From assembly GCA_012517375.1 (NCBI GenBank), contig JAAYVC010000072.1, positions 1 to 40,587 of the forward strand: 40,587 nt of DNA. The letters run 5' to 3'. This document shows positions 25,975 through 39,844 of the stretch, piece after piece. This DNA comes from a bacterium. Its GTDB lineage: Bacteria; Hydrothermota; Tepidihabitantia; B3-TA06. Every line of letters starts with the position of its first letter. Positions within the stretch are counted from its first letter, which is position 1. A model generated the notes under the pieces. The model ran no database searches and was not told where the DNA came from. It saw nothing but the letters and a program-made list of their open reading frames with translations. Made by a program: the position numbers and the translations under genes.

Positions 25975-26664
25975 TTAGAGTTTTTTAACGCGTTCAATAT
26001 CTTCGTCTCGGCCTATTAAGACAAGCGTGTCGCCTTCCCTTATCTCGTCTTCCGCACCAGGGGCAATGTTTATCTTGTCCTCGATATCGGGCAGTCCCTT
26101 CTTGGAGATTGTTGGAACCTTGCTTTTTATCGCGATGACGTTGACCCCGAATCGCTTGCGGAGGTGTATCTCGACAAGCTTCTTCCCGATAGTCTCCTTG
26201 GGCGCGGCTATCTCGACCAGGCTGTACTCCTCACTCAGCTCTATCACATCGAATATGTGCGGCGAGAGAAGGTTTTCCACGACCCTTACCGCCATATCCC
26301 TTTCGGGAAAAACAATCTTATCTGCCCCGATTCGCCTCAAGAGCTTTGCATGCTGCTCGTCCGTAACCTTTACTATTACCTCTGGAACGCCGATCTCCTT
26401 GAGAAGCATGGTTACGAGCAGGCTGTCGGCAATCGACTCGCCGAAGCTTACGAGCGCCGTGTCGACTTCGTCAACCCCTGCATCTCTTAAGGATTTTGCA
26501 TCAGTAGCGTCGAGTTCGACGGCGTTGGACAGCTCGTTTCCGATTTCTTCTACCTTTTGCGAGTCATGGTCGCAGGCAAGCACCTCGTAGCCTCTCTTCG
26601 CAAGCTCCCGGGCTACGGCGGAACCGAATTTGCCAAGGCCTATCACGGCAAATTTTTTGGACAT
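25975..26664 (-). CDS. ktrA: KtrA/TrkA-type potassium channel gating subunit
   Basis: This 229-residue RCK protein has an N-terminal NAD/ATP-binding Rossmann fold (VIGLGKFGSAVARELAKRGY, ending in the acidic ACDHD) and a C-terminal RCK_C domain from about residue 145 (YSLVEIAAPKETIGKKLVEI, then INVIAI-like strands). Length and single-RCK design fit KtrA, a cytoplasmic octameric ring that gates KtrB in response to ATP/ADP. It follows two KtrB genes on the same strand. Confidence 0.9.
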   Translation of the reverse strand: MSKKFAVIGLGKFGSAVARELAKRGYEVLACDHDSQKVEEIGNELSNAVELDATDAKSLRDAGVDEVDTALVSFGESIADSLLVTMLLKEIGVPEVIVKVTDEQHAKLLRRIGADKIVFPERDMAVRVVENLLSPHIFDVIELSEEYSLVEIAAPKETIGKKLVEIHLRKRFGVNVIAIKSKVPTISKKGLPDIEDKINIAPGAEDEIREGDTLVLIGRDEDIERVKKL

Positions 26665-26799
26665 TCAGTTTGCCTCTTTATTAGTATGGGTCAGACAATC
26701 CTCACTATGAATGTGTTCACGTCGAGATTTTACAACCGAGCTAAAAAAAGTCAAGCGCGCAACCTGAGCTCCCCAATAAGGATAAATCCTGAATCTAGT

Positions 26800-28137
26800 C
26801 TACCCGACATAGATATCCTCCCTTGCAAACTTGAACGAAACCTTTTTCGGCTCTCCAAGCAGCGAAAATCCTATTGCCAATGGCCCAATCCTGCCAATAA
26901 ACATGGTCAGACTGAGGAGGACACGTCCTACAGGGGTAAGATTCGCGGTAATTCCGGTGGACAAGCCGCCGTTTCCGAAAGCTGAAATTACTTCAAAAAG
27001 AATCTGCATAAAGGTTCCTTTTTCCGTAAAGACCAGAGCGAGCGTGATTATTGCGACCAGCAGCAGAGAAAGTGACGCAATAGCGAAGGATGTATCAATC
27101 AACTCAGGAGGGATGCGTCTTTTGTATATGTTGGCATCAGGGCTTCTCTTAAGAAGTGACAGAACGAAAAGGATGATGACCCCGAAGGTCGTGGTCTTTA
27201 TGCCTCCTCCGGTGCTTCCCGGTGAGGCGCCGATGAACATGAGTATCATGAGGAAGAAGAGACTCGGGGCCATCAGGCCGCCGACGTCGACGGTATTGAA
27301 TCCGGTTGTCGTTTCAGCGGACACAGCCTGGAAGAACGCGTTCATAAGCTGTCTGCCTATTGGGAGATTCGATCTTCCGAGTTCCGAAAAGAAAACAACA
27401 AAGGTGCCTATTACGACAATAACCGCCGTTACCGTAAGCACCATCTTGGTGTGCAGCGACAGCCTGTGAGGCCACTTCCTGGCTATGGTTTTCTGGGATT
27501 GACGGTACATGTCGAAAAGGACGAAGAAGCCGACTGCGCCGGCAATGGAAATCACTTCTTCAACGAGGTTTACGTAAACGCTAGCCTGGCACGAAACAAG
27601 GCTGTCCGGGAAAAGTCCGAATCCGGCGGTGCAGAACGCCGACACGGAATGGAAGAAACCGAGCCACAGAGCGCGAGGAAGAGGATAGTAAGACATCCAG
27701 TAAAGGGTCAGGAGCAGGGCGCCGCCTAATTCAAACGCAAGGGTAAAGAGTATTACCGCTTTCGCAAAACTCTTGGTATTGCCTATCGGCGCCCCGGCCA
27801 TGGATTCCTTGAAGCTTGCCTTGCTCACGTGATTCGGTTTCCTGTTCAACGCATAGGCGATAAGTACAATGAAGACCATGAAGCCTATGCCGCCTATCTG
27901 GAAGATAATAAGCATGACTATCTGGCCGAACAGATTGTAAAAGCTGCCCGTGTCCTGCACCACAAGGCCGGTCGTCGAGATGCAGGATGCCGAAGTAAAG
28001 AGCGCATCAATAAAAGACTGCCAAACGCCTTTGGTGTTCGAGATGGGCAACGTCAAAAGGAAAGCCCCCAGAATAGTAATCAGGAGGAAGCCGAGGACGA
28101 CCGATTGCAGGGGCGTCAGTCTGGTGCGCTTTTTCAC
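26800..28137 (-). CDS. ktrB: KtrB/TrkH-type potassium channel subunit (copy 1)
   Basis: This 445-residue membrane protein has four M1-P-M2 repeats whose pore loops are all visible: STTGLVV, CTAGFGLF, TTTGFNTVD and GNGGLSTGI, each with the filter glycine. The C-terminus REDIYVG is the usual KtrB ending. It starts at GTG 28137. It lies 135 bp upstream of ktrA and probably forms the membrane channel of that system. Confidence 0.9.
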   Translation of the reverse strand: MKKRTRLTPLQSVVLGFLLITILGAFLLTLPISNTKGVWQSFIDALFTSASCISTTGLVVQDTGSFYNLFGQIVMLIIFQIGGIGFMVFIVLIAYALNRKPNHVSKASFKESMAGAPIGNTKSFAKAVILFTLAFELGGALLLTLYWMSYYPLPRALWLGFFHSVSAFCTAGFGLFPDSLVSCQASVYVNLVEEVISIAGAVGFFVLFDMYRQSQKTIARKWPHRLSLHTKMVLTVTAVIVVIGTFVVFFSELGRSNLPIGRQLMNAFFQAVSAETTTGFNTVDVGGLMAPSLFFLMILMFIGASPGSTGGGIKTTTFGVIILFVLSLLKRSPDANIYKRRIPPELIDTSFAIASLSLLLVAIITLALVFTEKGTFMQILFEVISAFGNGGLSTGITANLTPVGRVLLSLTMFIGRIGPLAIGFSLLGEPKKVSFKFAREDIYVG

Positions 28138-28268
28138 TTAGTCTTTCCCATTAAAGCGCAAAAAGTGGAATAAAAAAAGTAATCCGCAGATAATAGTTCA
28201 GCTCTCATTTTTAAAGGTAATTCCTATGAAAAGTACCCTAGGGATCCTTGCTCTTTTATTAAAACCAT

Positions 28269-29666
28269 CTACCCTACCACTATATTGGCTTTTGCAGGTC
28301 TTACACGGGTGGAACTTCCACCTGAGAAGAGCGCCGAACCAATAGTTATTGTTCCTACTTTGCCGAAGAACATGGTTAATATCAATACCATTTTGCCCCA
28401 GGTGTTGAAATCGGCGGCGAAAGAGAGAACGGGCGAGGTTTTTGACCCCATGGACAGGCCAACGGTTCCGAAGGCGGAGAAAACCTCGAACGCCGAGCGT
28501 GAAATATCTTTTCCACCGTTAAATACTACGCAAAGGAATGTTGATGTCAATACCAGGAGTGCCGAAAGTACCACTATGGTTATGGAACGCTGAACCTGTT
28601 CGGGTTTTATACTCCGCTTGAGCATAACTATCTCGCTGCGGCCCCGAAGCACCCTTATCACCTCGGCCAAAAGAAGCGAAAAGGAGGTCGTCTTAACGCC
28701 CCCGCCCGTCCCACCTGGCGAAGCGCCTATGAACATGAGAATCATCATAAAAAACAGGGTATATGAGCGCATTCCGCCGACGGCTGCGAGGTTGTAACCG
28801 GCAGTGCGCGGGGTTATAGAGGCGAAAAAAGCATTTAGTATCTTGTAGCCTGCGGGGAGGTCCCTGAAGGCGCCGTTCCATTCGGCAATTCCGATGATGA
28901 GGGCTCCAACGCATATGAGTACGGCAGTGGATATCAAAACAAGCTTTGTGTGCGACGCAAGTCTCATGTTTTCGCCCTTTATGCGTTTGTAAATATCGCT
29001 TATAACAATGAACCCCAAACCGCCAGAGATTATTAGAGCCGCTATCACGGGGCCGACAACTGGGTCCTGGGTAAAACGACCAAGGTTATCTGAAAACGTT
29101 GAGAATCCGGCGTTGCAGAAAGCTGAAATCGAGTGAAAAATACCGTAATATGCCGACTGTCCCCACTCCATGCCGTATTTGAACCTGAACCAGAAGGTAA
29201 GAACTAACGCTCCTAGAGCTTCGACGACCAAGGTGACCTTAATGATGGTAAATGCGAAGCGTCTCAGGTTTCCAAAGGATAGGAAGTTTATGGACTCCTT
29301 CATGAGAAGCCTGTGGCGCAGGGTCGCCTTCTGCCCCAGAAGAAAGAAGAAGGCGGATGAAAGGGTCATGTAGCCAAGGCCTCCAATCTGGATGAGTAGG
29401 AGGATAACAATCTGACCGAAAAGTGTGAAGTCGACTGGCGTATCCTTCACGATGAGTCCGGTAACGCAAGTAGCCGAAGTAGACGTAAAAAGGGCATCTA
29501 TGAACGAACACCCGTGCGATGCAAAGGGGAGAGACAGAAGACCCGTTCCCGTGAGTATCATTATGGCGTAGCCCAGCAGAAGGAGTGCGCCAGGGTTAAC
29601 AGCCGAATGAACCTTTAAGGAGCCGGCAAGCGGAAAGCTCTTGAACGCCGATCCTTTCATTCTCAT
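28269..29666 (-). CDS. ktrB: KtrB/TrkH-type potassium channel subunit (copy 2)
   Basis: This protein of about 465 residues is a paralog of the downstream KtrB. Pore loops read ATCVTGLIV, CNAGFSTF, RTAGYNLA and GTVGLSMG, and the C-terminus is NIVVG. Filter variants (CVTG, TVG) differ from copy 1, so ion selectivity or affinity may differ. I choose the ATG at 29666, which overlaps the TGA of the 76-residue ORF as ATGA. GTG 29690 is an alternative but lacks a site. Confidence 0.88.
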   Translation of the reverse strand: MRMKGSAFKSFPLAGSLKVHSAVNPGALLLLGYAIMILTGTGLLSLPFASHGCSFIDALFTSTSATCVTGLIVKDTPVDFTLFGQIVILLLIQIGGLGYMTLSSAFFFLLGQKATLRHRLLMKESINFLSFGNLRRFAFTIIKVTLVVEALGALVLTFWFRFKYGMEWGQSAYYGIFHSISAFCNAGFSTFSDNLGRFTQDPVVGPVIAALIISGGLGFIVISDIYKRIKGENMRLASHTKLVLISTAVLICVGALIIGIAEWNGAFRDLPAGYKILNAFFASITPRTAGYNLAAVGGMRSYTLFFMMILMFIGASPGGTGGGVKTTSFSLLLAEVIRVLRGRSEIVMLKRSIKPEQVQRSITIVVLSALLVLTSTFLCVVFNGGKDISRSAFEVFSAFGTVGLSMGSKTSPVLSFAADFNTWGKMVLILTMFFGKVGTITIGSALFSGGSSTRVRPAKANIVVG

Positions 29667-29893
29667 TTCTTCCACAACTGGATTTTCCACTTAGAAAGCT
29701 TGTTGTCAACAGAGAAGTAAGTACCACATATCCGGCAAGGAATCGACATCATCTTTTTCCTTGGTTGGAGAGTGTCGAAATCTCCGGTTGCGCTCAGTAA
29801 CGACATATCATCCTTTGAGTGTTTTTGAGTTTCAGGCCACGGGAATACGCTTGTAAAGTTGCGATTATCCAGAGATGATTTAAGGATAAACAT
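29663..29893 (-). CDS. 76-residue ORF coupled to ktrB copy 2
   Basis: The ORF begins at ATG 29893, three bases after the PP-loop stop, preceded directly by an AGGGG sequence. Its TGA overlaps the ATG of ktrB copy 2. It contains SIPCRICGTYFSVDNKLSKW near its C-terminus, a CxxC that might bind metal. No family is recognised. The tight coupling on both sides argues that it is translated, but codon and homology evidence are lacking. Confidence 0.45.
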   Translation of the reverse strand: MFILKSSLDNRNFTSVFPWPETQKHSKDDMSLLSATGDFDTLQPRKKMMSIPCRICGTYFSVDNKLSKWKIQLWKK

Positions 29894-29896
29894 CCC

Positions 29897-30931
29897 CTAA
29901 AGCCTAAGTTTTTCGATGTTTACATCTTGAGCAGGCGAAACAGAGATTACCTTTTCTACTCCGTTATGACAAAGAGTTACTTTGATTTCCGGTTCATTCT
30001 TCAAATCCGAATACCGCGCAACAATGCTTGCAGCCCACAGCAAAACTGTGTTTGCTTGCGGGTACTCCGGCAATCCTTGACTGAGGTCGTCCCCGAATGA
30101 TTCAAGGAATAACAGGCCTACGGGGCTGCCTGCCTCTTTTACATCGAGGAATACCCTTGACTTGTCCGGATGACGCAAAAGCTCTTCGTTGTCATTCTGG
30201 TTCTTTCCGACAATGAGCTTTGGACCCAGGGGGTGCCTGAAATGCCTGCCTACCTTGAGGAGCGCAACCTGCTCGTCCGTGAGTTCCAGGGGGCGCTCGA
30301 GTATATCGCGGAGTTTTCTTGAATATCCGGGTTCGGTAAGAAGGCATCCGCCTGAGGGAGTAGCGAACTCGGTGATTCCCCATTTCGATGCGAGTTCAAG
30401 CTGCGGCTTGCGGCCCCTGCCCTGAATGGAGAGGAGTCTTGGGCGATCTATAAGGCCGCTCGTCTCGATTTCGGTAGATGGAAGGAGGGTGGCGGAAAGC
30501 GGACGGAGCAGTCTTCCCTCAAGTCCTGATTCGCGTTCTATGATATCGAGGGAGAGCCGGTTCTGGCTCATAGGCCGCTCGCCAAGCACCTCCCCTGTTG
30601 CAGCCGCATCAAAGCCTTCGGACTCAATTATTCGCTTTGCTTCGCGGAGGAACAGTATCTTGCAGTCTATGCAGGCGTTGAGGGCTCGGCCGAAACCATG
30701 AGGGGGCGACGTAAGCAGAGGCAGATAGTCGTGGAGGGATATCCTTGTCCTGCGGATGCTGATGCCCCATTCGCCGAGATAGCGCTCGCCCGGCAATCCC
30801 GATTCCTTACCAGTAAAAGGGGTCATGAAATGCACTGCCTCGACACGGGCGCCAAGCTCGACAAGGAGTCTTGAAGCAATAAGACTGTCCAGTCCGCCGG
30901 AGAAGAGCAAAAGAATCCGGGGTCTTCTCAC
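29897..30931 (-). CDS. PP-loop ATP pyrophosphatase (MnmA/ThiI-like) with C-terminal domain
   Basis: This 344-residue protein has the PP-loop SGGLDS at residues 11-16. A cysteine pair in NACIDCKILFL and a second conserved cysteine in TPSGGCLLTEP follow, as in MnmA-type thiouridylases. Motifs TGEVLGERPMSQNRLSLDII and RLLRPLSATLLP match a lineage of stand-alone thiolation enzymes annotated as tRNA 2-thiouridylase-like. The last about 110 residues form an extra domain. A tRNA or other thiolation role is likely; the exact substrate is not known. It overlaps the membrane gene upstream by four bases. Confidence 0.8.
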   Translation of the reverse strand: MRRPRILLLFSGGLDSLIASRLLVELGARVEAVHFMTPFTGKESGLPGERYLGEWGISIRRTRISLHDYLPLLTSPPHGFGRALNACIDCKILFLREAKRIIESEGFDAAATGEVLGERPMSQNRLSLDIIERESGLEGRLLRPLSATLLPSTEIETSGLIDRPRLLSIQGRGRKPQLELASKWGITEFATPSGGCLLTEPGYSRKLRDILERPLELTDEQVALLKVGRHFRHPLGPKLIVGKNQNDNEELLRHPDKSRVFLDVKEAGSPVGLLFLESFGDDLSQGLPEYPQANTVLLWAASIVARYSDLKNEPEIKVTLCHNGVEKVISVSPAQDVNIEKLRL

Positions 30932-31632
30932 TTAACTATTCCGATAACCCTCAAAGTTCCTATGGCCCAGTCGTTTACTAGAAAGTAAAGCCTGCCTATG
31001 AGAAGCGATATACGCGACATGACCGTGTATCCGAATGCGGCGCCGAAGGAGACCATGATGAAGATAATACCGACGCGCGACACTCCGCCAAGAAAACCGG
31101 TATGAGGCTTGGAGAAGTAGAAATAGATAAGCGTTGCAACCACGCCCACGAAAAGAAGGATATTGCCGACAATGGTCCAGAGATCATAGCCCTGGGACCA
31201 CAAGGGCAGGAGAGTGGCCTGTATCTGAGGCAGAAGAAAACCCTGAATGCCGCCGGTAATTCCGAGACCCGAGCCGAGACCGACTGCGAATGCTATAGGC
31301 CAGCGGGAAAGCCAGCTTACCTTAGGTCCGAACCAGCGCGTCAGCATGAGAAGGCCGAGAACGGTGGGAATGATGAGTATCAGCGCTTCAGCGAGGCCGT
31401 TGGCTGCATTGACGCCGCCTGTCCTGTACAGCGCGATGTTCTGGAAGAACGGCTTAACCAGAAGTTCCTCCATCGTTGACTTGGCGAGCGTGATAACCAC
31501 GTATGCGGCTGAAGCGCCGACGTACAGATGCTCGGCGAATTTGTACAAAGGATTGTCACGGTAAAGGAAGGAAAGAATTGCTATAGTGAGCGTAGCCGCT
31601 ATCCATATTCCGAGGATTGTTGCGAAGTTCAT
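30928..31632 (-). CDS. Membrane protein of the four-gene cluster (subunit D)
   Basis: This 234-residue protein has about six to seven predicted transmembrane helices with conserved-looking loops YKFAEHLYVGASAAYVVITL near the N-terminus and PHTGFLGGVSRVGIIFIMVSF near the end. It overlaps both neighbours by four bases (ATGA), so translation is coupled. No family of known function is recognised. It is part of the cluster with the FN3/DUF6754-like protein. Confidence 0.75.
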   Translation of the reverse strand: MNFATILGIWIAATLTIAILSFLYRDNPLYKFAEHLYVGASAAYVVITLAKSTMEELLVKPFFQNIALYRTGGVNAANGLAEALILIIPTVLGLLMLTRWFGPKVSWLSRWPIAFAVGLGSGLGITGGIQGFLLPQIQATLLPLWSQGYDLWTIVGNILLFVGVVATLIYFYFSKPHTGFLGGVSRVGIIFIMVSFGAAFGYTVMSRISLLIGRLYFLVNDWAIGTLRVIGIVK

Positions 31633-32507
31633 TTCTTCCTCCTCTGAAAGATATCAACCGCAAAATCAGCGGCCGAGCCTATGAGTATGAGAACGATTAT
31701 TAGAATGTGCGCAGTGGACTGGGCAGGCATTCCGCCGCTGGCCGCGCCGGGTTTTCCAAGAAGAGACTCGTATTCGCTTGCGCCCTTAAGCCCGCCCACG
31801 AGTCCTACGAGCTGGCCCGACTGGATATAGGTGTAGAGTCCAGGAGCGTTGACGCCCGTGACTCCGGCTATTATCTTCTGTCCGAAACGGCCTCCGGCAA
31901 ACTCGACCCACGCATCCACAATGGGTCCGTGCGCGTAGCTCACGAGAAGGGCTATGTCGTTGTAGTTGTGCACGTTCTTCATGATGGGAAAGCTGTCAAC
32001 ACTGACGCCCTTGTAGTCCGAGGGATAAAAATCGCGTATCTCGCGGCCCAGGCCGACCATTACCGCCGTGTAACCAGGGTTGTAGGAAAGGTAAAGGTAG
32101 TCCTTCCCGTACTCTTTATGAAAATGGGGATTACCGGTTTTCTCGTACTCTTTTACGTTGCGGTCGTTGTATTCAGCGGCGATTCTTTCTATGCCCATCT
32201 GTCCCAAAGGCAGTCCCTGCACGATGTGACCCACAAGAAGTATCTTAAGATCCTTCCTGAAGGCATGAGCGGTCATTGCATCCAGCATCGGCTGACACTC
32301 GGGAGAACTCGTTGCATCGTAATCCACTGAAAGCATTAGGACAGACCCGGCGGGGAGCTTTTCGATGGCGTCATAGGCGTCTCGGACTTGTTTGCCTACC
32401 TCGAACGGAATAGGTATCCTTAAAAGCAAGGGAATAAGCACAACCAGGGTGACGAGTATGAATATGACCCGCCGGTCGATTCTGGAAAGCCAATTGATGA
32501 ATTTCAT
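31629..32507 (-). CDS. Membrane-anchored protein of the four-gene cluster (subunit C)
   Basis: This 292-residue protein has an N-terminal anchor (about 14-31), a large soluble domain containing LPAGSVLMLSVDYDATSSPE, ILLVGHIVQGLPLGQMGIER and LGREIRDFYPSDYKG, and a C-terminal helix (about 266-284). The soluble domain therefore faces one side with both ends in the membrane. The gene has a TAGGAGGAAGCGATG start that overlaps the preceding stop. No known family is recognised. Confidence 0.75.
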   Translation of the reverse strand: MKFINWLSRIDRRVIFILVTLVVLIPLLLRIPIPFEVGKQVRDAYDAIEKLPAGSVLMLSVDYDATSSPECQPMLDAMTAHAFRKDLKILLVGHIVQGLPLGQMGIERIAAEYNDRNVKEYEKTGNPHFHKEYGKDYLYLSYNPGYTAVMVGLGREIRDFYPSDYKGVSVDSFPIMKNVHNYNDIALLVSYAHGPIVDAWVEFAGGRFGQKIIAGVTGVNAPGLYTYIQSGQLVGLVGGLKGASEYESLLGKPGAASGGMPAQSTAHILIIVLILIGSAADFAVDIFQRRKK

Positions 32508-32516
32508 CGCTTCCTC

Positions 32517-33308
32517 CTAAGTAGACGAGATGTAGGTTCGCTCAATGCCGAGAATGAGCCTGATGGACATGGCTATTCCGCCCAGGACAAGGCCGATGAA
32601 TATTCCGCGTTGTGCGGCGGTCTGGGGAACCGACATTATCCATTCCTGAATTTGGGGGGCCAGCCGCACGTAGTCCTTGGCGAAGACAAGAACCGCAACC
32701 CCGAAGCCCAATCCGAGTGCTGAGAGTATTACGCCTGCCACAGGCTTGCGGATGACGATGCGGTAAACGCCGGCCGCAGCAATCAGAACGGCAAGCATCA
32801 CCGCCGAAGGCAGTATGCCGATGCTCAACCTGCCTATCATGACAAGAATCGCTGCGATGAGGAGCAGGGTTGCGTCGAACGTTCTTGCGCGGAAGGCGCG
32901 GTAAGCGGCGGAAGCGATAAAGAACGCAAGCAGGGAGAACATCGTTCCCTGCAGCGGAACTATTATCCAGTTATAGACCCAGAAGAAACCGCCAATCTTG
33001 TCTATGGATGAAAGCTCGAAAGGCGAGCCGAAGCGCGCCCAGGTCACTATGCCGGAGACAAGAGTGCCTACTATTCCGACGAGAGTCACAAGACTGAAGA
33101 ACCAGTCGCGCTCCTTGCGCACCATTCTTGTAAGGTGATGCCTGACTAGACTGTCTATTCCAAGGAGCGCCGTGAAACCTCCGATGATGGAGAACCACAC
33201 GAGCATTCGCTGCTCCATGCTCCCGAACGGCTCGCGCGGGATAAAGAAGGTGACTGTGATGAAAACACCCGAAAGGAATGTTATGATGAGTGGAACTGTT
33301 TTTTTCAT
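32517..33308 (-). CDS. Multi-helix membrane protein of the four-gene cluster (subunit B)
   Basis: This 263-residue protein has about eight predicted transmembrane helices with very short loops. A basic cytoplasmic patch (RHHLTRMVRKERDW) follows the second helix. It starts at ATG 33308 with AGGAG upstream and lies 9 bp after the FN3/DUF6754-like gene. No family is recognised. Confidence 0.75.
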   Translation of the reverse strand: MKKTVPLIITFLSGVFITVTFFIPREPFGSMEQRMLVWFSIIGGFTALLGIDSLVRHHLTRMVRKERDWFFSLVTLVGIVGTLVSGIVTWARFGSPFELSSIDKIGGFFWVYNWIIVPLQGTMFSLLAFFIASAAYRAFRARTFDATLLLIAAILVMIGRLSIGILPSAVMLAVLIAAAGVYRIVIRKPVAGVILSALGLGFGVAVLVFAKDYVRLAPQIQEWIMSVPQTAAQRGIFIGLVLGGIAMSIRLILGIERTYISST

Positions 33309-33317
33309 ATCTGGCTC

Positions 33318-34520
33318 CTACAGGGTATTGAAGAATTCAACGAACCGGTTGAAGAAATCGAGCACCCAGTTAGAGGACTCCGGAACCTTGAGCGCTTCCA
33401 GTATCCCGCCTACCGTGCCGAGAAGCGTGCCCGCTAGGAGTAGGAAGATGATGCCTATCTTTGCGATGTCCTCGCTCTTCAGGGAACCCATCAGCTGCGG
33501 CTCGCGGTCGATGTAGGCGGATGCAGCGTACAGTTCTTCTCCGAGAAGGGTGTAGTCGCAAGCGGCTACGAAAAACGGCAGCTGCGTAACCATGGATGTT
33601 CCGGCAATCTGTATGGCGCCAACGCTGTGGCCTGTTTCGGCGAGGATAAGCGCCTCGGCGTAAAAAGTTCCCTGCAGGAAAACGGTGCCGGGCTTTTCCC
33701 TTATCAGGATACCGTCGACACCCGCTGCGTAACCAAACTGGTCGGCAGTGAGAAACGAAATATCATCCTCCCTGTAAAGATCGGGCCTGCCCGCTTCCAT
33801 GAAAGCCTGCTTGACCGTCTCCTGCGCAGCCGTCATGACTATCGGGTCGCAGTTGGGTATGATGAGGCGGGTTTCGTACTGGGCGGCGCGCTTGGCTATT
33901 CTTCTGAGAATGGAGAGGGCGGCAAGCGTAGCCAGATCGGTAAGCCCGCCTATGCCGAAGGTGAAAAGGATAGGCTTGCCCATCTCGGTGGAGCGGCCCA
34001 CGGCTTCGTCCACCGCGTCAAGACCGGCGATGCGCCGGATGAACATGTTGCGGTTTCGCTTGGCAAGCTCTATGTAGAGTATTACCACAAATCCGTAAAC
34101 CACAGCCACGATAAGAACCGCCCAGCGGGCCTTATTGAACCAGTGAGCCTTGGACTGAACAGGCCCGGCAATGAGAGACGGAGCGGTTTGACCGTCGTTG
34201 GACTCTGCATCCACCCGGTAGTAGTAGTCAACCTTGTCCCGAAGCGCGGTGGTGTCGTTGTCGGTGTAATAGAAGACGGGCGTGACGAACTCAACAACCT
34301 TCGTGAAAGGTCCGGAGGCGGATTGGGCGCGGTACACGGTATAGGTTTTGATGCGCGCCGAATCCCGAGAAGGATTCCAGGAAAGCTCTATGCTCCTTCC
34401 GGCGTCGTTTGGTGTATCCTCTGCTGCAAGCTCCGTTACAGGCGCTGGAGGCTCAAGTTTCACCGACGAATCCGGAGGAGGAGTCTGGGCTATAAATAAA
34501 AGCAATATCCCCAAGATCAC
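33318..34520 (-). CDS. FN3-domain plus DUF6754-like membrane protein (subunit A)
   Basis: This 400-residue protein has a signal sequence, an extracytoplasmic fibronectin type III domain (about 25-125: ELSWNPSRDSARIKTYTVYR, then YYYRVDAESNDGQ), a transmembrane helix (about 131-150) and a conserved cytoplasmic-looking region with GKPILFTFGIGGLTDLATLA, LIIPNCDPIVMTAAQE and QIAGTSMVTQLPFF, ending in another helix. This conserved region resembles DUF6754. It starts at GTG 34520 with AGGAGGAG upstream. It heads the four-gene operon and diverges from padR. Confidence 0.8.
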   Translation of the reverse strand: MILGILLLFIAQTPPPDSSVKLEPPAPVTELAAEDTPNDAGRSIELSWNPSRDSARIKTYTVYRAQSASGPFTKVVEFVTPVFYYTDNDTTALRDKVDYYYRVDAESNDGQTAPSLIAGPVQSKAHWFNKARWAVLIVAVVYGFVVILYIELAKRNRNMFIRRIAGLDAVDEAVGRSTEMGKPILFTFGIGGLTDLATLAALSILRRIAKRAAQYETRLIIPNCDPIVMTAAQETVKQAFMEAGRPDLYREDDISFLTADQFGYAAGVDGILIREKPGTVFLQGTFYAEALILAETGHSVGAIQIAGTSMVTQLPFFVAACDYTLLGEELYAASAYIDREPQLMGSLKSEDIAKIGIIFLLLAGTLLGTVGGILEALKVPESSNWVLDFFNRFVEFFNTL

Positions 34521-34645
34521 AATACTCCTCCTAGGGTTAGATTATTTCAAGTCTAAAGCTTATACCTGCTTGAGGGGTTGTCAAGTGTTTCTTAAGAGAG
34601 TATATTGAGATTGTTTGGTATATTCCGTTTACTTTCCCGGCATTC

Positions 34646-34673
34646 TGGACAAACTTGGGATTCACCGTATCAT
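34646..34673 (+). promoter_or_regulatory. padR-MFS promoter
   Basis: TGGACA (34646-34651) and TATCAT (34668-34673) are 16 bp apart. Directly downstream, TATCGGA occurs twice 13 bp apart, and the palindrome CGATATCG (34684-34691) overlaps the second copy. This could be the PadR operator, placed where binding would block the start. Confidence 0.5.
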
Positions 34674-34703
34674 TATCGGAAATCGATATCGGAGTTCGTT
34701 AAG

Positions 34704-35006
34704 ATGGATAAGCGGCTAAGACCATTGTATCTGGCATTCATAAAGCTTCACATACTCTGCCTTGCGGCAGAGGAGGAGGTTTACGGCGCCGCTATTAAGG
34801 AAGAGTTCGAGCGTCACGGCTACAATCTCTCGTACGGCACTCTCTATCCTATTCTGCATGGATTGGAGAAGGAAGGATATCTAAAGAGCTGTAAAAGAGT
34901 TGAAATGGGCAAGCAACGCAAATATTATGTACTAACACAGCCGGGCAGGATCTTTTTTAAAAAGGCGAAGGTAAAACTCAAGGAGTTAAGCGAGGAGCTA
35001 CTATGA
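34704..35006 (+). CDS. PadR-family transcriptional regulator
   Basis: This 100-residue winged-helix protein has the PadR features KLHILCLAAEEEVYGAAIKE, LSYGTLYPILHGLEKEGYLK and RKYYVLTQPGR. The ATG at 34704 has GGAG 9 bases upstream; the frame is open further upstream but has no site and would exceed family length. It overlaps the MFS gene by four bases (ATGA) and probably controls that exporter. Confidence 0.88.
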   Translation: MDKRLRPLYLAFIKLHILCLAAEEEVYGAAIKEEFERHGYNLSYGTLYPILHGLEKEGYLKSCKRVEMGKQRKYYVLTQPGRIFFKKAKVKLKELSEELL

Positions 35007-36223
35007 AGAAGGACGGAAGAAACATGCCTAATGAAGAGGTTTTAATCGGAAAGCAGAAGGCGCCTAGCGAGGGTAAACGCAACGTGTTTCTTTTCGGGAT
35101 GATTAGCCTTTTCACGGACATCTCGAGCGAGATGATCTATTCCCTCGTCCCCGGCTTCCTTCGCTCGCTCGGCGCGACGTCCACTCTCATAGGACTCATC
35201 GAGGGAATAGCCGAGGCGACCGCCGCGCTTTCAAAATCCTTCTTCGGATGGCTATCGGACAGGCTAAAGAACCGCAAGCTCTTCGTTTTTCTTGGGTATA
35301 GTTTATCCGCTCTGTCAAAACCATTTCTTTTTCTTGCAGGGCATTGGAGCGCCGTTCTGGGAGTGAGATTTGCTGACCGCACAGGCAAGGGGCTTCGCTC
35401 TCCCGCTCGCGACGCCCTTCTTTCGCAGTCTGTTTCCGCAAAACGCCGGGGGCTCGGCTTCGGGTTCCAGCGCGCGATGGACAACCTTGGCGCTGCATCA
35501 GGACCCTTGCTCGCGATGCTGATTCTCTATCTCTCGCACAACAACATGCGGCTCGTTTTCCTACTCTCAGTTATCCCGGCGCTTATTGGCGTATCCTTCA
35601 TCTTCTTTGTAAGGGAGATTCGCTCGCTTTCGAGGACGGTGAAGGAAGCGAGGAAGGACGGCCCGCTGGACGCACGCTTCATCTGGTTCTCTATTGCGAT
35701 GGTCGTGTTCACGCTCGGCAACTCATCTAACGCATTCCTTTTATTGAGGGCGCAGGACTCGGGTATAAGCCTGTCGCTCGTTCCCTTGATTTGGACGGTC
35801 TACAGCGCAGTTGCCGCATTATCGAGCCCTGTGTTCGGACATCTCTCAGATAAGATTGGCAGGCGCTGGGTCATTCTTGTTTCCTTCGTTGTTTACTCCG
35901 CCGTCTACTTCCTTTTCGGGAACTTCTCGACGCCTCTGGCTATGTGGCTACTCTTTGCTGCATACGGAGTCCATCACGGGCTTTCGGAGGGCGTTTTCCG
36001 CGCATTCATCGCGGACCTGATTCCAGCAGAGCGCCGCGCTACCGCCTACGGGATTTATGAGACCATGATAGGACTCGCGCTCTTTCCTGCAAGCCTCATC
36101 TTCGGGCTTTTGTGGGATAAGCTTTCGCCGCAAATAGCGTTCTACACGGGCGCAGGCCTGTCCCTTCTCGCAGGGGTTATCTTTATCGTGACGCAAAGGG
36201 GGAGGAGGGGTGTGGATGACTGA
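35003..36223 (+). CDS. MFS transporter
   Basis: This 406-residue protein has about twelve transmembrane helices. Motif A variants GWLSDRLKNRK (first half) and GHLSDKIGRRW (second half) are both present, along with FADRTGKGLRSPARDALLS, typical of a bacterial MFS subgroup with an N-terminal FTDISSEMIY. Coupled to PadR, it is most likely a drug or toxic-compound exporter; the substrate is unknown. Confidence 0.87.
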   Translation: MKKDGRNMPNEEVLIGKQKAPSEGKRNVFLFGMISLFTDISSEMIYSLVPGFLRSLGATSTLIGLIEGIAEATAALSKSFFGWLSDRLKNRKLFVFLGYSLSALSKPFLFLAGHWSAVLGVRFADRTGKGLRSPARDALLSQSVSAKRRGLGFGFQRAMDNLGAASGPLLAMLILYLSHNNMRLVFLLSVIPALIGVSFIFFVREIRSLSRTVKEARKDGPLDARFIWFSIAMVVFTLGNSSNAFLLLRAQDSGISLSLVPLIWTVYSAVAALSSPVFGHLSDKIGRRWVILVSFVVYSAVYFLFGNFSTPLAMWLLFAAYGVHHGLSEGVFRAFIADLIPAERRATAYGIYETMIGLALFPASLIFGLLWDKLSPQIAFYTGAGLSLLAGVIFIVTQRGRRGVDD

Positions 36224-36269: not shown

Positions 36270-37103
36270 ATGGAGTATCCCTTAGATGAGATCATTTGTG
36301 GAGATTGTGAAAAAGTTCTTAAAGACTTCCCAGATGATAGTATTGATCTTATCGTCACTTCTCCGCCGTATGCCGACAGCCGCGAAAAAACCTATGGCGG
36401 AATAAATCCTAATGAATACGTGTCATGGTTCTTGCCCCGGGCGGAACAATTCCTTAGGATTTTAAAACCAACAGGTACTTTCATCCTGAACATTAAAGAA
36501 AGAGTAGTTGCTGGGGAAAGACATACATACGTTATCGAATTGATTCTTGAGTTGAGAAAACAAGGTTGGTTATGGACTGAAGAATTCGTCTGGCATAAAA
36601 AAAACTGCTACCCAGGAAAGTGGCCCAATCGTTTCAGGGATGCGTGGGAGAGATGTCTGCAATTCAACAAGGATAAGAGATTTAACATGTATCAGAATAA
36701 CGTAATGGTTCCAATGGGTAAGTGGGCAGAAACAAGATTAAAAAGGTTAAGCGATACTGACCAGATAAGAGATGAATCTAAGGTCAACAGTGGTTTTGGA
36801 AAGAATATCTCAAACTGGGTTGGGCGCGAAAAGGTTTACCCGACAAATGTACTTCATTTAGCTACAGAATGTGGTAATCGCGAACACAGTGCTACTTTTC
36901 CTGTAGCTTTGCCTGAGTGGTTCATAAAGCTTTTCACTCAACCTGGTGATGTGGTACTTGACCCCTTTATAGGTTCAGGCTCCACAGCCATTGCGGCTTT
37001 GAATCTAAACAGACACTTCATTGGCATTGATGTTTTGGAGGAATATTGCGAACTGGCACGAAACGCACTCAGAACCATGCCTCAAAGGAAATTGCCGATA
37101 TGA
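36270..37103 (+). CDS. Type II DNA methyltransferase (beta class, permuted)
   Basis: This 277-residue methyltransferase has catalytic TSPPY at residues 30-34 before the SAM motif DPFIGSGST at 231-239, the beta-class order used by N4-cytosine and some N6-adenine enzymes. The SPPY form favours N4-cytosine, but this cannot be settled by eye. It overlaps the endonuclease gene by four bases (ATGA), so methylase is made first and the nuclease is translationally coupled. Confidence 0.88.
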   Translation: MEYPLDEIICGDCEKVLKDFPDDSIDLIVTSPPYADSREKTYGGINPNEYVSWFLPRAEQFLRILKPTGTFILNIKERVVAGERHTYVIELILELRKQGWLWTEEFVWHKKNCYPGKWPNRFRDAWERCLQFNKDKRFNMYQNNVMVPMGKWAETRLKRLSDTDQIRDESKVNSGFGKNISNWVGREKVYPTNVLHLATECGNREHSATFPVALPEWFIKLFTQPGDVVLDPFIGSGSTAIAALNLNRHFIGIDVLEEYCELARNALRTMPQRKLPI

Positions 37104-37873
37104 AACAGTTGGATTTCGTCAAACCTCTTGATTTGAAGGAGGTTGAGAAATTTGTTGCTTCACATATAGCGAAGTTTCACCAAAGACGTCTTGAAAGTGC
37201 AGGCAAGATGGATTTGAAAGCTATCCTGAAGCGTAAAAATCCTTATTTGTTTAGAGCCAAGAATATGAACCGTGCGGGTGATTTGATAAACGGATTCCTT
37301 GATGCCGCGATTTCTTCCTCAGAGGAAGAGATATTCGGTGACTTCCTTGAGGATTTGGCTATATTTATTGCAAAAGAAACTTATGGTGCAGAGAAATCGC
37401 CTGCGCCGGGAATTGACTTTCAATTCAACAAAGATGGTATTACATATATTGTTTCAGTCAAATCAGGACCCAACTGGGGAAATAGTTCTCAACAAGATAA
37501 GCAAGAGGAAAACTTTAAAAGGGCAACAAAGGTTCTTAAGGGTTCAAGCCATACACGTCACGTAGAGGCTATCCTGGGTATCTGCTACGGAAAAACAAGA
37601 ACAACTAGCCTTCGCGGCTACCAGAAGATTGTAGGTCAAAACTTCTGGTATTTCATCAGCGGAAACGAGAATCTTTATACAGATATTATCAAACCTTTAG
37701 GGCACAGAGCGAAAGAATGCAACGAGGAATTCCAAGCTAAAAGAGATGCATTGGCTAACCGCCTTACTATGGAATTCATGAAAGAGTTCTGTGACGAAAA
37801 TGGCTACATCAATTGGATTAGGTTGATTCAACTTAACAGTGGGAATTTACACCTGAACCCCATAATTCACTAA
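37100..37873 (+). CDS. PmeII-like type II restriction endonuclease
   Basis: This 257-residue protein shows the pattern of PmeII-type endonucleases: KAILKRKNPYLFRAKN, SSSEEEIFGDFLEDLAIFI and GIDFQF...SVKSGPNWGNSSQ. Asp106, Ser119 and Lys121 fit a PD-(D/E)XK-type core with D-x12-SVK. It starts at ATG 37100 within the methylase stop; an upstream in-frame GTG-type start is disfavoured. It and the methylase form a complete type II system. Confidence 0.85.
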   Translation: MKQLDFVKPLDLKEVEKFVASHIAKFHQRRLESAGKMDLKAILKRKNPYLFRAKNMNRAGDLINGFLDAAISSSEEEIFGDFLEDLAIFIAKETYGAEKSPAPGIDFQFNKDGITYIVSVKSGPNWGNSSQQDKQEENFKRATKVLKGSSHTRHVEAILGICYGKTRTTSLRGYQKIVGQNFWYFISGNENLYTDIIKPLGHRAKECNEEFQAKRDALANRLTMEFMKEFCDENGYINWIRLIQLNSGNLHLNPIIH

Positions 37874-38047: not shown

Positions 38048-39844
38048 ATGGGTCCAAAAAAGAGAGTATCTCCGGACTTAGATCCGCATCCATTTAACGT
38101 AATTTACATAAAGAATCCCTCTCAGGAGCAGTTGCGCCGCATGGCAATAGAGCACACGCCCGCCTGCTACACTACAAAGCACGGCAACGTGAACAAGATT
38201 GCCCGCAACAAGGCTCGCATGGCCAACTATACTTATATCATAGCCCCGGAGGAGGATAAGGCAAAGTATTCTGGAAACTTAATTGCGCCCGAGAAGGCTG
38301 AACAACTGCTGTGCGCGGTATGGGACTACATCGAGCGCCAGGGCAGGCTTATCGAGATACAGGGCTACTACGGCCTTTCAGAGAACGCCTCCGAGCGTTT
38401 TCCTATCCAATGGCTTTACACAATGCCTGCAGCAAACGTTGCGGGAATGCAGCAGGTACTTACGTTTCCGAGGGAGGACGTGGAGACCTCGGAGGAACGC
38501 TCGCAGGTATTCAAGCCCGTCATCCGCGTGGTCATGGTCCCCGAGTTTCCCTTATGCGATATGCCCGGCAAGCAGGCTATGTTAGTTGATCTTGAGAACT
38601 GGACCACCTGGGTCATAGGCGCCGATTACTTCGGGGAATCCAAGAAGGGCGCGCTCCGCATGCTTAACGACTACGTATACCAGCGCGGCGGATTGGTTCT
38701 CCATGCAGGAGCCAAGGCGGTATCGATCCAGGGCAAGCGTGTAACAATGGCGCTTCTTGGTCTCTCTGGAACGGGCAAGACGACAACGACATTCTCCAAA
38801 CAGGGCGATACCAGCGAACCCATTCAGGACGACATGATATGCCTCTGGCCGAACGGTCGTATTTCGATTACGGAGAACGGCGCATTCGCAAAAACCTTCG
38901 GGTTAACGAGGCAGACAGAACCGATTATTTACAGAGGGTCGCTGGACAGCGCCGCATGGGTCGAGAACGTATATACGGATGCCGAAGGAGCGTACGACTT
39001 CTCAAAGAGCCGCATGACGGTCGAAGAGGTTCGCAGGTTCAGGACCTATCTCGTAATAACGGGCGCATCGGCGGAGAACATAGACGCATACATATCAGGA
39101 AAGGTCCGCTTCGAGGACAAAGTGGACGAGTACGGCACTCCTGCAGACGGTTGGGACTTCCTCGTCTGGACGCAGAACGGCCGCTCCGTAATCCCCATGT
39201 CAAAGATTGAGGGTGCGGCAGATTTACTGGACATACCTCCGCTTCAATCGATAGGGCTTCTTAACCGCGACGAGGGTCCTGACGCAGCAACACCCGGGAT
39301 TGTCAGGTTCGTATCCATGGATCAGGCGGCCGCCTACTTCATGCTTGGCGAGACCTCAAAGACATCGGCAGCAGGCAAGGAACGCGGAAAAACCCGCTCC
39401 CCATTCACCCAGCCTTTCTTTCCGCGCGCAATGGGTCTTCAAGCGGTTCGATTTTCGGAACTTGCCAAGGATATTGACGATCTTGAAACCTGGATGATGA
39501 ACACGGGCTACGTCGGCGGAGACCAGCTTGACGTTGATGCAGGCAAGGCGTTGAAGGTGAAGATAAAGCATTCTTCGGCCATGCTCGAGGCGATGCTTGC
39601 AAAGAAGATCGTCTGGAAGCTTGACCCCGATTTCGGATACGAGATAGCGGATGTGGATAATCCGAAGAACGCGGAGCTTTTAGCCAAGGTACCGAAGGAA
39701 GTGTTGAACCCCATGCTTTTCTTCGAACGCACGGGCAAGATGGACATCTACAAAGCCTGGGTCAAAAAGATGAAGGAGGAGCGAAGGGCGTTTCTCGAGA
39801 AGTACAAGGTTGACCCGAAGATAATAGCGACTATACCGAAATAG
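38048..39844 (+). CDS. pckA: Phosphoenolpyruvate carboxykinase (ATP-type, divergent)
   Basis: This 598-residue protein has the ATP-type PEPCK P-loop LSGTGKTTTT (Gly241-Thr247) and the kinase-2/metal region IQDDMICLWPNGRISITENG followed by AFAKTFGL. It catalyses oxaloacetate + ATP to PEP + CO2 + ADP at the TCA/gluconeogenesis junction. It is longer than the usual about 540 residues and diverges in the DDE(H)GW motif, so a specialised clade is likely. The ATG at 38048 has GGAGG upstream and its own promoter. Confidence 0.88.
   Translation: MGPKKRVSPDLDPHPFNVIYIKNPSQEQLRRMAIEHTPACYTTKHGNVNKIARNKARMANYTYIIAPEEDKAKYSGNLIAPEKAEQLLCAVWDYIERQGRLIEIQGYYGLSENASERFPIQWLYTMPAANVAGMQQVLTFPREDVETSEERSQVFKPVIRVVMVPEFPLCDMPGKQAMLVDLENWTTWVIGADYFGESKKGALRMLNDYVYQRGGLVLHAGAKAVSIQGKRVTMALLGLSGTGKTTTTFSKQGDTSEPIQDDMICLWPNGRISITENGAFAKTFGLTRQTEPIIYRGSLDSAAWVENVYTDAEGAYDFSKSRMTVEEVRRFRTYLVITGASAENIDAYISGKVRFEDKVDEYGTPADGWDFLVWTQNGRSVIPMSKIEGAADLLDIPPLQSIGLLNRDEGPDAATPGIVRFVSMDQAAAYFMLGETSKTSAAGKERGKTRSPFTQPFFPRAMGLQAVRFSELAKDIDDLETWMMNTGYVGGDQLDVDAGKALKVKIKHSSAMLEAMLAKKIVWKLDPDFGYEIADVDNPKNAELLAKVPKEVLNPMLFFERTGKMDIYKAWVKKMKEERRAFLEKYKVDPKIIATIPK

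Follow-up and report, generated by a model that had tools for sequence, protein, structure and literature searches.

Four adjacent genes, here called A, B, C and D, lie on the minus strand at positions 30928-34520 of contig JAAYVC010000072.1 (assembly GCA_012517375.1; Hydrothermota, Tepidihabitantia, B3-TA06), whose 40,587 nucleotides make up the window analysed here, and their frames, spacing and order are repeated across many phyla, in about 100 complete cassettes, an arrangement that is far above chance. From this genomic evidence, the products of A-D very probably form a single physical complex in the inner membrane. In many genomes the cassette directly follows three further genes, F, M and E, and the evidence that M and E are partners of A-D is strong. 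A tentative reading of the whole, to which we give somewhat less than an even chance, is that the membrane complex A-D, together with M and E, is driven by ATP and moves or senses a small ligand.

A four-gene membrane cassette

The four reading frames are tightly packed, with gaps of 9 nt between A and B and again between B and C, and with 4 nt shared by C and D (Table 1). An earlier note on this DNA, made from the letters alone, had proposed a membrane operon of four translationally coupled genes forming one complex, to which a PP-loop enzyme was coupled. The four open reading frames (ORFs) are indeed present, and gene order and congruent gene trees support joint function, from which the complex itself would follow. 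The PP-loop ORF, which shares 4 nt with D, does not belong to the system; it adjoins D only in the closest relatives of the window, loci L054 and L055, and was dropped as a fifth component. The note's statement that no known secretion or transport system is matched also stands: B, C and D have no matches in profile searches of Pfam and NCBIfam, and none of consequence in PADLOC or among PDB sequences, where A matches FN3 domains alone. As judged by sequence, A is the only one of the four with a family name, that of a domain of unknown function. No described family takes in B, C or D. An anti-phage defence identity for A-D, M and E was dropped after no PADLOC model gave a match of consequence.

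Table 1. Positions and predicted features of the four genes and their domains within the window
Feature	Positions	Strand	Length	Remarks
Gene A	33318-34520	minus	400 aa	N-terminal signal/anchor, extracytoplasmic FN3, transmembrane helix, cytosolic DUF6754 domain, C-terminal transmembrane helix (predicted)
FN3 domain of A	34158-34436	minus	residues 29-121	36% mean pairwise identity, poorly conserved
DUF6754 match of A (PF20539)	33408-34151	minus		membrane helix plus predicted (beta-alpha)6 cytosolic domain
Gene B	32517-33308	minus	263 aa	polytopic; family form six transmembrane helices, N-in/C-in by charge; eight helices here
Two-helix insert in B	32682-32816	minus	about residues 165-209	only in closest relatives L054/L055
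Gene C	31629-32507	minus	292 aa	N- and C-terminal transmembrane anchors flanking a predicted extracytoplasmic Rossmann-like domain
Soluble alpha/beta domain of C	31746-32408	minus	about residues 34-254 (~230 aa)	
Gene D	30928-31632	minus	234 aa	about six transmembrane helices, one weak; N-out by charge

Distribution and evolution of the cassette

Of 147 genomes from the window's phylum (WOR-3), 140 encode between one and seven copies of DUF6754, the domain that names A; 14 control genomes encode none. Scanning named genomes recovered 80 DUF6754 loci from about ten phyla by record label: WOR-3/Stahlbacteria, TA06, Zixibacteria, Latescibacterota, Edwardsbacteria, Coatesbacteria, Fermentibacteria/Aegiribacteria, Eisenbacteria, Poribacteria, Planctomycetota (including Scalindua) and one metagenome-assembled genome labelled 'Deltaproteobacteria'. 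At these loci, and at those taken from further genomes, the cassettes occur singly or as two or three in tandem, and independent scattering of the four genes was looked for and not seen. The adjacencies AB, BC and CD were counted 120, 113 and 105 times and never in reversed order, numbers that are minima because some genes in GC-rich loci escape greedy ORF calling, and the 36 DA adjacencies correspond to cassettes in succession. Uncommon adjacencies (AC 6, BD 4, CA 3 and a few singletons), inspected in part, look like fragments or missed ORF calls. Over about 100 cassettes the median gaps are 9 nt for A-B and -1 nt for both B-C and C-D.

Tree distances of A, B, C and D correlate at 0.75-0.89 across 98 complete cassettes, and this congruence indicates that the cassette evolves as a unit. 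It is highly improbable that the four genes are mere neighbours that make no joint product, given that their order does not vary across many phyla, that starts and stops overlap, that their trees agree and that the cassette has been duplicated repeatedly. The concatenated tree contains two large, supported groups, of 48 cassettes (support 0.97) and 41 cassettes (1.0). A small group listed next to the second of these contains the window's cassette, and another cassette of the same host (contig C49; L003:8557-12024), an ancient paralogue, belongs to the first. Most tandem cassettes differ deeply from each other and are not recent duplicates, and by our own reading both types are combined in about 11 of 18 multi-cassette loci. 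Most genomes hold at least two cassettes, and the split between the two main types appears to be older than the separation of the phyla. With types of this age so often found together, a single hetero-assembly may combine type I and type II cassettes.

Candidate cytosolic partners

At many loci A is immediately preceded by genes for F (~110-165 aa), M (~610 aa) and E (~375 aa), and the order F-M-E-A-B-C-D is found in Planctomycetota, Fermentibacteria, WOR-3 and others (FM 25, ME 38 and EA 25 adjacencies). M matches PF13941, the GlmL/MutL-type ASKHA ATPase family, over its full length (E=5.9e-128, positions 1-450 of 450), and falls well under the NCBIfam equivalog cut-offs for GlmL (229 against 475 bits) and Or-4 (216 against 600 bits). 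E is a predicted barrel-sandwich protein with a probable KOW domain and further conserved regions; weak RnfC_N, NQRA_N and biotin-lipoyl matches recur in its N-terminal third, under cut-off in the members shown.

The association extends beyond gene order. Among 199 Planctomycetota genomes, in which the system is patchy, A is present in 50, M in 53, E in 48 and all three in 44, and Fisher tests, which ignore phylogeny, give 1e-30 for A-M, 3e-35 for A-E and 9e-38 for M-E. As controls in the same genomes, Rnf-Nqr does not track A (odds 1.9, p=0.07), and methylmalonyl-CoA mutase, the one B12-dependent mutase family compared, shows a negative relation to A (odds 0.46, p=0.03). M is found in 23 of the 24 genomes reached via named loci, and M and E are each found in 139 of the 147 genomes of the window's phylum. 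A, M and E are all missing from two genomes of a single genus in that phylum (G126 and G127, 94-95% complete), a natural loss whose comparison with carriers could reveal function. A further link is a fusion of M and E into a protein of 947 aa, present on contig C62 of the host (L141:3715-6558) and in other genomes of the phylum, whose best NCBIfam match is the Or-4 model. The idea of a four-gene system thus holds for A-D as a unit and needs amending to include cytosolic partners, which in the host are encoded on other contigs, M on C6 and E on C89. That M and E act on the A-D complex is, in our judgement, probable.

The identity of M invites another explanation, that of a membrane-tethered repair or cofactor station, in which M would reactivate enzymes dependent on pyridoxal phosphate, lipoyl groups or corrinoids, and A-D would either hold M in place or bring a cofactor through the membrane. 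Such a reactivating ATPase would resemble GlmL, Or-4 and the accessory proteins of lysine aminomutase. Besides the full-length PF13941 match and the hits to the GlmL and Or-4 models, this explanation draws on gene neighbourhoods: gcvPA/gcvPB immediately precede the operon in Fermentibacteria, Aegiribacteria and a number of others (gcvPB at 15 loci), gcvPB is next to M in the host genome, a lipoate ligase or LipB gene lies downstream at six loci, and threonine synthase-like genes, named from sequence, are near M in some genomes. However, M remains under both equivalog cut-offs, gcvP does not adjoin the Planctomycetota operons read, and methylmalonyl-CoA mutase, if it relates to A at all, does so negatively. 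Furthermore, a repair station leaves the Rossmann-like domains described below, on opposite faces of the membrane, unexplained, and we regard it as unlikely.

A second set of neighbours suggests an envelope machine tied to ExbB/ExbD-type proton motors, with the FN3 domain of A and the soluble domain of C engaging the outer membrane or peptidoglycan. Relatives of ExbB occur in the fetched stretch at 15 loci (WOR-3, Zixibacteria, Fermentibacteria and Planctomycetota) and of ExbD at nine, the FN3 domain is predicted to lie outside, and all hosts are presumably diderm. Yet exbBD genes are common, most loci have none of them nearby, and the association is confined to few lineages, and this explanation is judged somewhat less likely still than a repair station. 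None of the gcvPA/gcvPB, lipoate ligase/LipB or ExbB/ExbD-type neighbours is universal. At three Planctomycetota loci (L173, L174 and L188), genes for ExbB, two ExbD-like proteins and a TatD-like protein lie directly upstream of F-M-E-A-B-C-D.

Domain architecture and predicted topology

The earlier note had described A as an FN3-bearing, DUF6754-like protein with its FN3 face outside the cytoplasm, B as an eight-helix protein, C as a double-anchored protein with a large soluble domain and D as a protein of six to seven helices; these descriptions proved sound, except that eight helices are a peculiarity of the window's B. A matches PF20539 at E=1.9e-111 (371.7 bits against a gathering cut-off of 27) over profile positions 2-249 of 257. 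Its FN3 domain scores 20.2 bits against PF00041, under the Pfam cut-off of 25, and is confirmed by fold, the predicted model of A aligning with FN3 structures at Z 13.4 over 97 residues at 1.9 Å (VIA-align). Hydropathy and the positive-inside pattern of charge place the FN3 domain outside the inner membrane and the (beta-alpha)6 domain inside. The most conserved piece of A is cytosolic, with 68% mean pairwise identity across phyla for residues 156-340. The AlphaFold model of A, built on a cross-phylum alignment, reaches a pLDDT of 86.6 and a pTM of 0.71.

The corresponding model of C has a pLDDT of 95.4 and a pTM of 0.89, and hydropathy and charge place its Rossmann-like domain outside, between the two anchors. 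A fold search with this domain gave generic Rossmann neighbours only, the best at Z 9.5 (1kjn, 138 residues, 3.5 Å) and the next within about 1 of each other. The models and the topology suggest two Rossmann-like domains on opposite faces of the membrane, that of C outside and that of A inside. Rossmann-like folds usually bind ligands at strand ends, and in alignments compared by eye with the models, many invariant residues lie near predicted strand ends in both domains. The two domains also share their succession of secondary-structure elements, six beta-alpha units flanked by a membrane helix on either side; homology between them was considered and gained no support, as hhalign gave a probability of 0.6%, no better than with permuted columns.

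B and D are predicted to supply the membrane core. Both families are of ~210 aa with six helices each, in opposite predicted orientations. For the window's B, alignment-averaged hydropathy predicts eight helices; the extra pair, at residues 168-208, is a local elaboration, present in L054/L055 and in none of the 37 relatives in the alignment. In D, the C-terminal motif GAxFGYTVMxRISLLIGR is nearly invariant. Kinship between B and D was rejected, since a comparison of profile with profile found no similarity. Weak TMD0_ABC matches occur in 21 of 38 members of the B family (best 8.7e-5) and not in the window's B, and the Pfam search of the window's A-D found no ABC family.

The pairing of six-helix proteins raises the alternative of an ion-pumping respiratory complex distantly like Rnf/Nqr, with B and D as an inverted pair and E as the NqrA/RnfC-type barrel-sandwich subunit. 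The sizes, helix numbers and opposite orientations of B and D, and the weak RnfC_N and NQRA_N matches of E, fit such a complex. PF02508, however, is not matched by the window's B or D (Pfam, E<=1) and is absent among the weak Pfam matches listed for members of the two families (for B, 25 of 60 families were listed), no cysteine pair or flavin-attachment motif was seen, and Rnf-Nqr presence is not significantly tied to that of A. This alternative is thus very unlikely.

A proposed model for an ATP-driven complex

From gene order, co-inheritance, domain content and the predicted folds and topology, we infer that A-D would be the membrane half of a larger F-M-E-A-B-C-D system. B and D would form the transmembrane core, C would hold its Rossmann-like ligand domain outside, and A would hold FN3 outside and its conserved (beta-alpha)6 domain inside, where M, the adaptor E and the small protein F may dock. 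An ATP-dependent conformational change of M might then drive or gate the core, which would either translocate a small ligand bound by C or signal its presence. The step from ATP use by M to transport or sensing of the ligand is backed by thin evidence and has somewhat less than an even chance.

Several observations weigh against this model. GlmL-type ASKHA ATPases are known for enzyme reactivation and not for transport. M and E are unlinked to A-D in many genomes, including the host, and in Planctomycetota M occurs without A in eight genomes and A without M in five. The co-occurrence tests, blind as they are to phylogeny, do agree with the operon structure and the M-E fusion. Finally, the matches listed in the fold search with the model of A were all to FN3 and none to the DUF6754 domain itself, because FN3 structures filled the list.

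Whatever its activity, the system is carried by ~95% of genomes in one candidate phylum and, with a patchy distribution, by a quarter of the Planctomycetota sampled. Strict conservation and wide spread without a known function suggest a missing piece of basic cell biology, one that would concern a large part of bacterial diversity, and a second role for GlmL/MutL ATPases is possible. In Planctomycetota the F-M-E-A-B-C-D operon lies on large single contigs of ~7-8 Mb, suggesting that carriers may be in culture and that function may be directly testable.

Other genes in the window

The PP-loop protein downstream of D (29897-30931, minus strand) has a ThiI-like domain (PF02568) and an NFACT-R_2 RNA-binding domain (PF18297), and is probably an RNA sulfur-transfer or modification enzyme. 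At 25975-29690 (minus) two different TrkH-type potassium transporter genes lie beside one TrkA/KtrA-type regulator; the stretches compared in L054 and L055 have one TrkH only. Divergent from the A-D operon, a PadR-type regulator gene overlaps that of a major facilitator superfamily transporter (34605-36223, plus). It is followed at 36270-37873 (plus) by a gene for a DNA methyltransferase akin to adenine-specific enzymes and an overlapping gene for a 275-aa protein with a nuclease-like stretch, which together look like a small restriction-modification pair. The gene at 38048-39844 (plus) encodes a divergent 598-aa relative of ATP-dependent phosphoenolpyruvate carboxykinase that is under every NCBIfam cut-off (262 against 369 bits).

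Comparison with known systems

Searches of the literature found no paper on DUF6754, and nothing on the A-D system in work on GlmL reactivases, on WOR-3 with FN3 or in catalogues of unknown genes, most subscription journals lying outside the search. The closest described family is DUF6754 (PF20539) itself, of which A is a full member; it is a curated family of unknown function, and Pfam covers this domain of A alone, with B, C and D in no Pfam family. M resembles the GlmL/MutL aminomutase accessory ATPases (PF13941, NF040745 and NF040744) as a full-length member of PF13941, but differs from them in lying far under the equivalog cut-offs and in being encoded in one operon with E and the membrane genes; the B12 mutase family compared does not track A. 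The N-terminal third of E recalls the barrel-sandwich hybrid domain of NqrA/RnfC through weak but recurrent matches; unlike those proteins, E has extra conserved regions and a probable KOW domain, and no iron-sulfur or flavin signature was noticed in it. The inner-membrane platform of type IV pili and type II secretion likewise sets an ASKHA protein (PilM/GspL) next to membrane subunits, a likeness in outline alone: the neighbourhoods read contained no recognisable PilB/GspE ATPase or pilin gene, and none of B, C and D matches a platform protein. We therefore rate the A-D/M/E system as new in kind, with the reservation that discovery of its function could assign it to a kind already described. 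There is close to an even chance that F-M-E-A-B-C-D represents an undescribed class of trans-envelope machine, one driven by an ASKHA ATPase, with Rossmann-like domains on both faces of the membrane and with two ancient paralogous sets of A-B-C-D.

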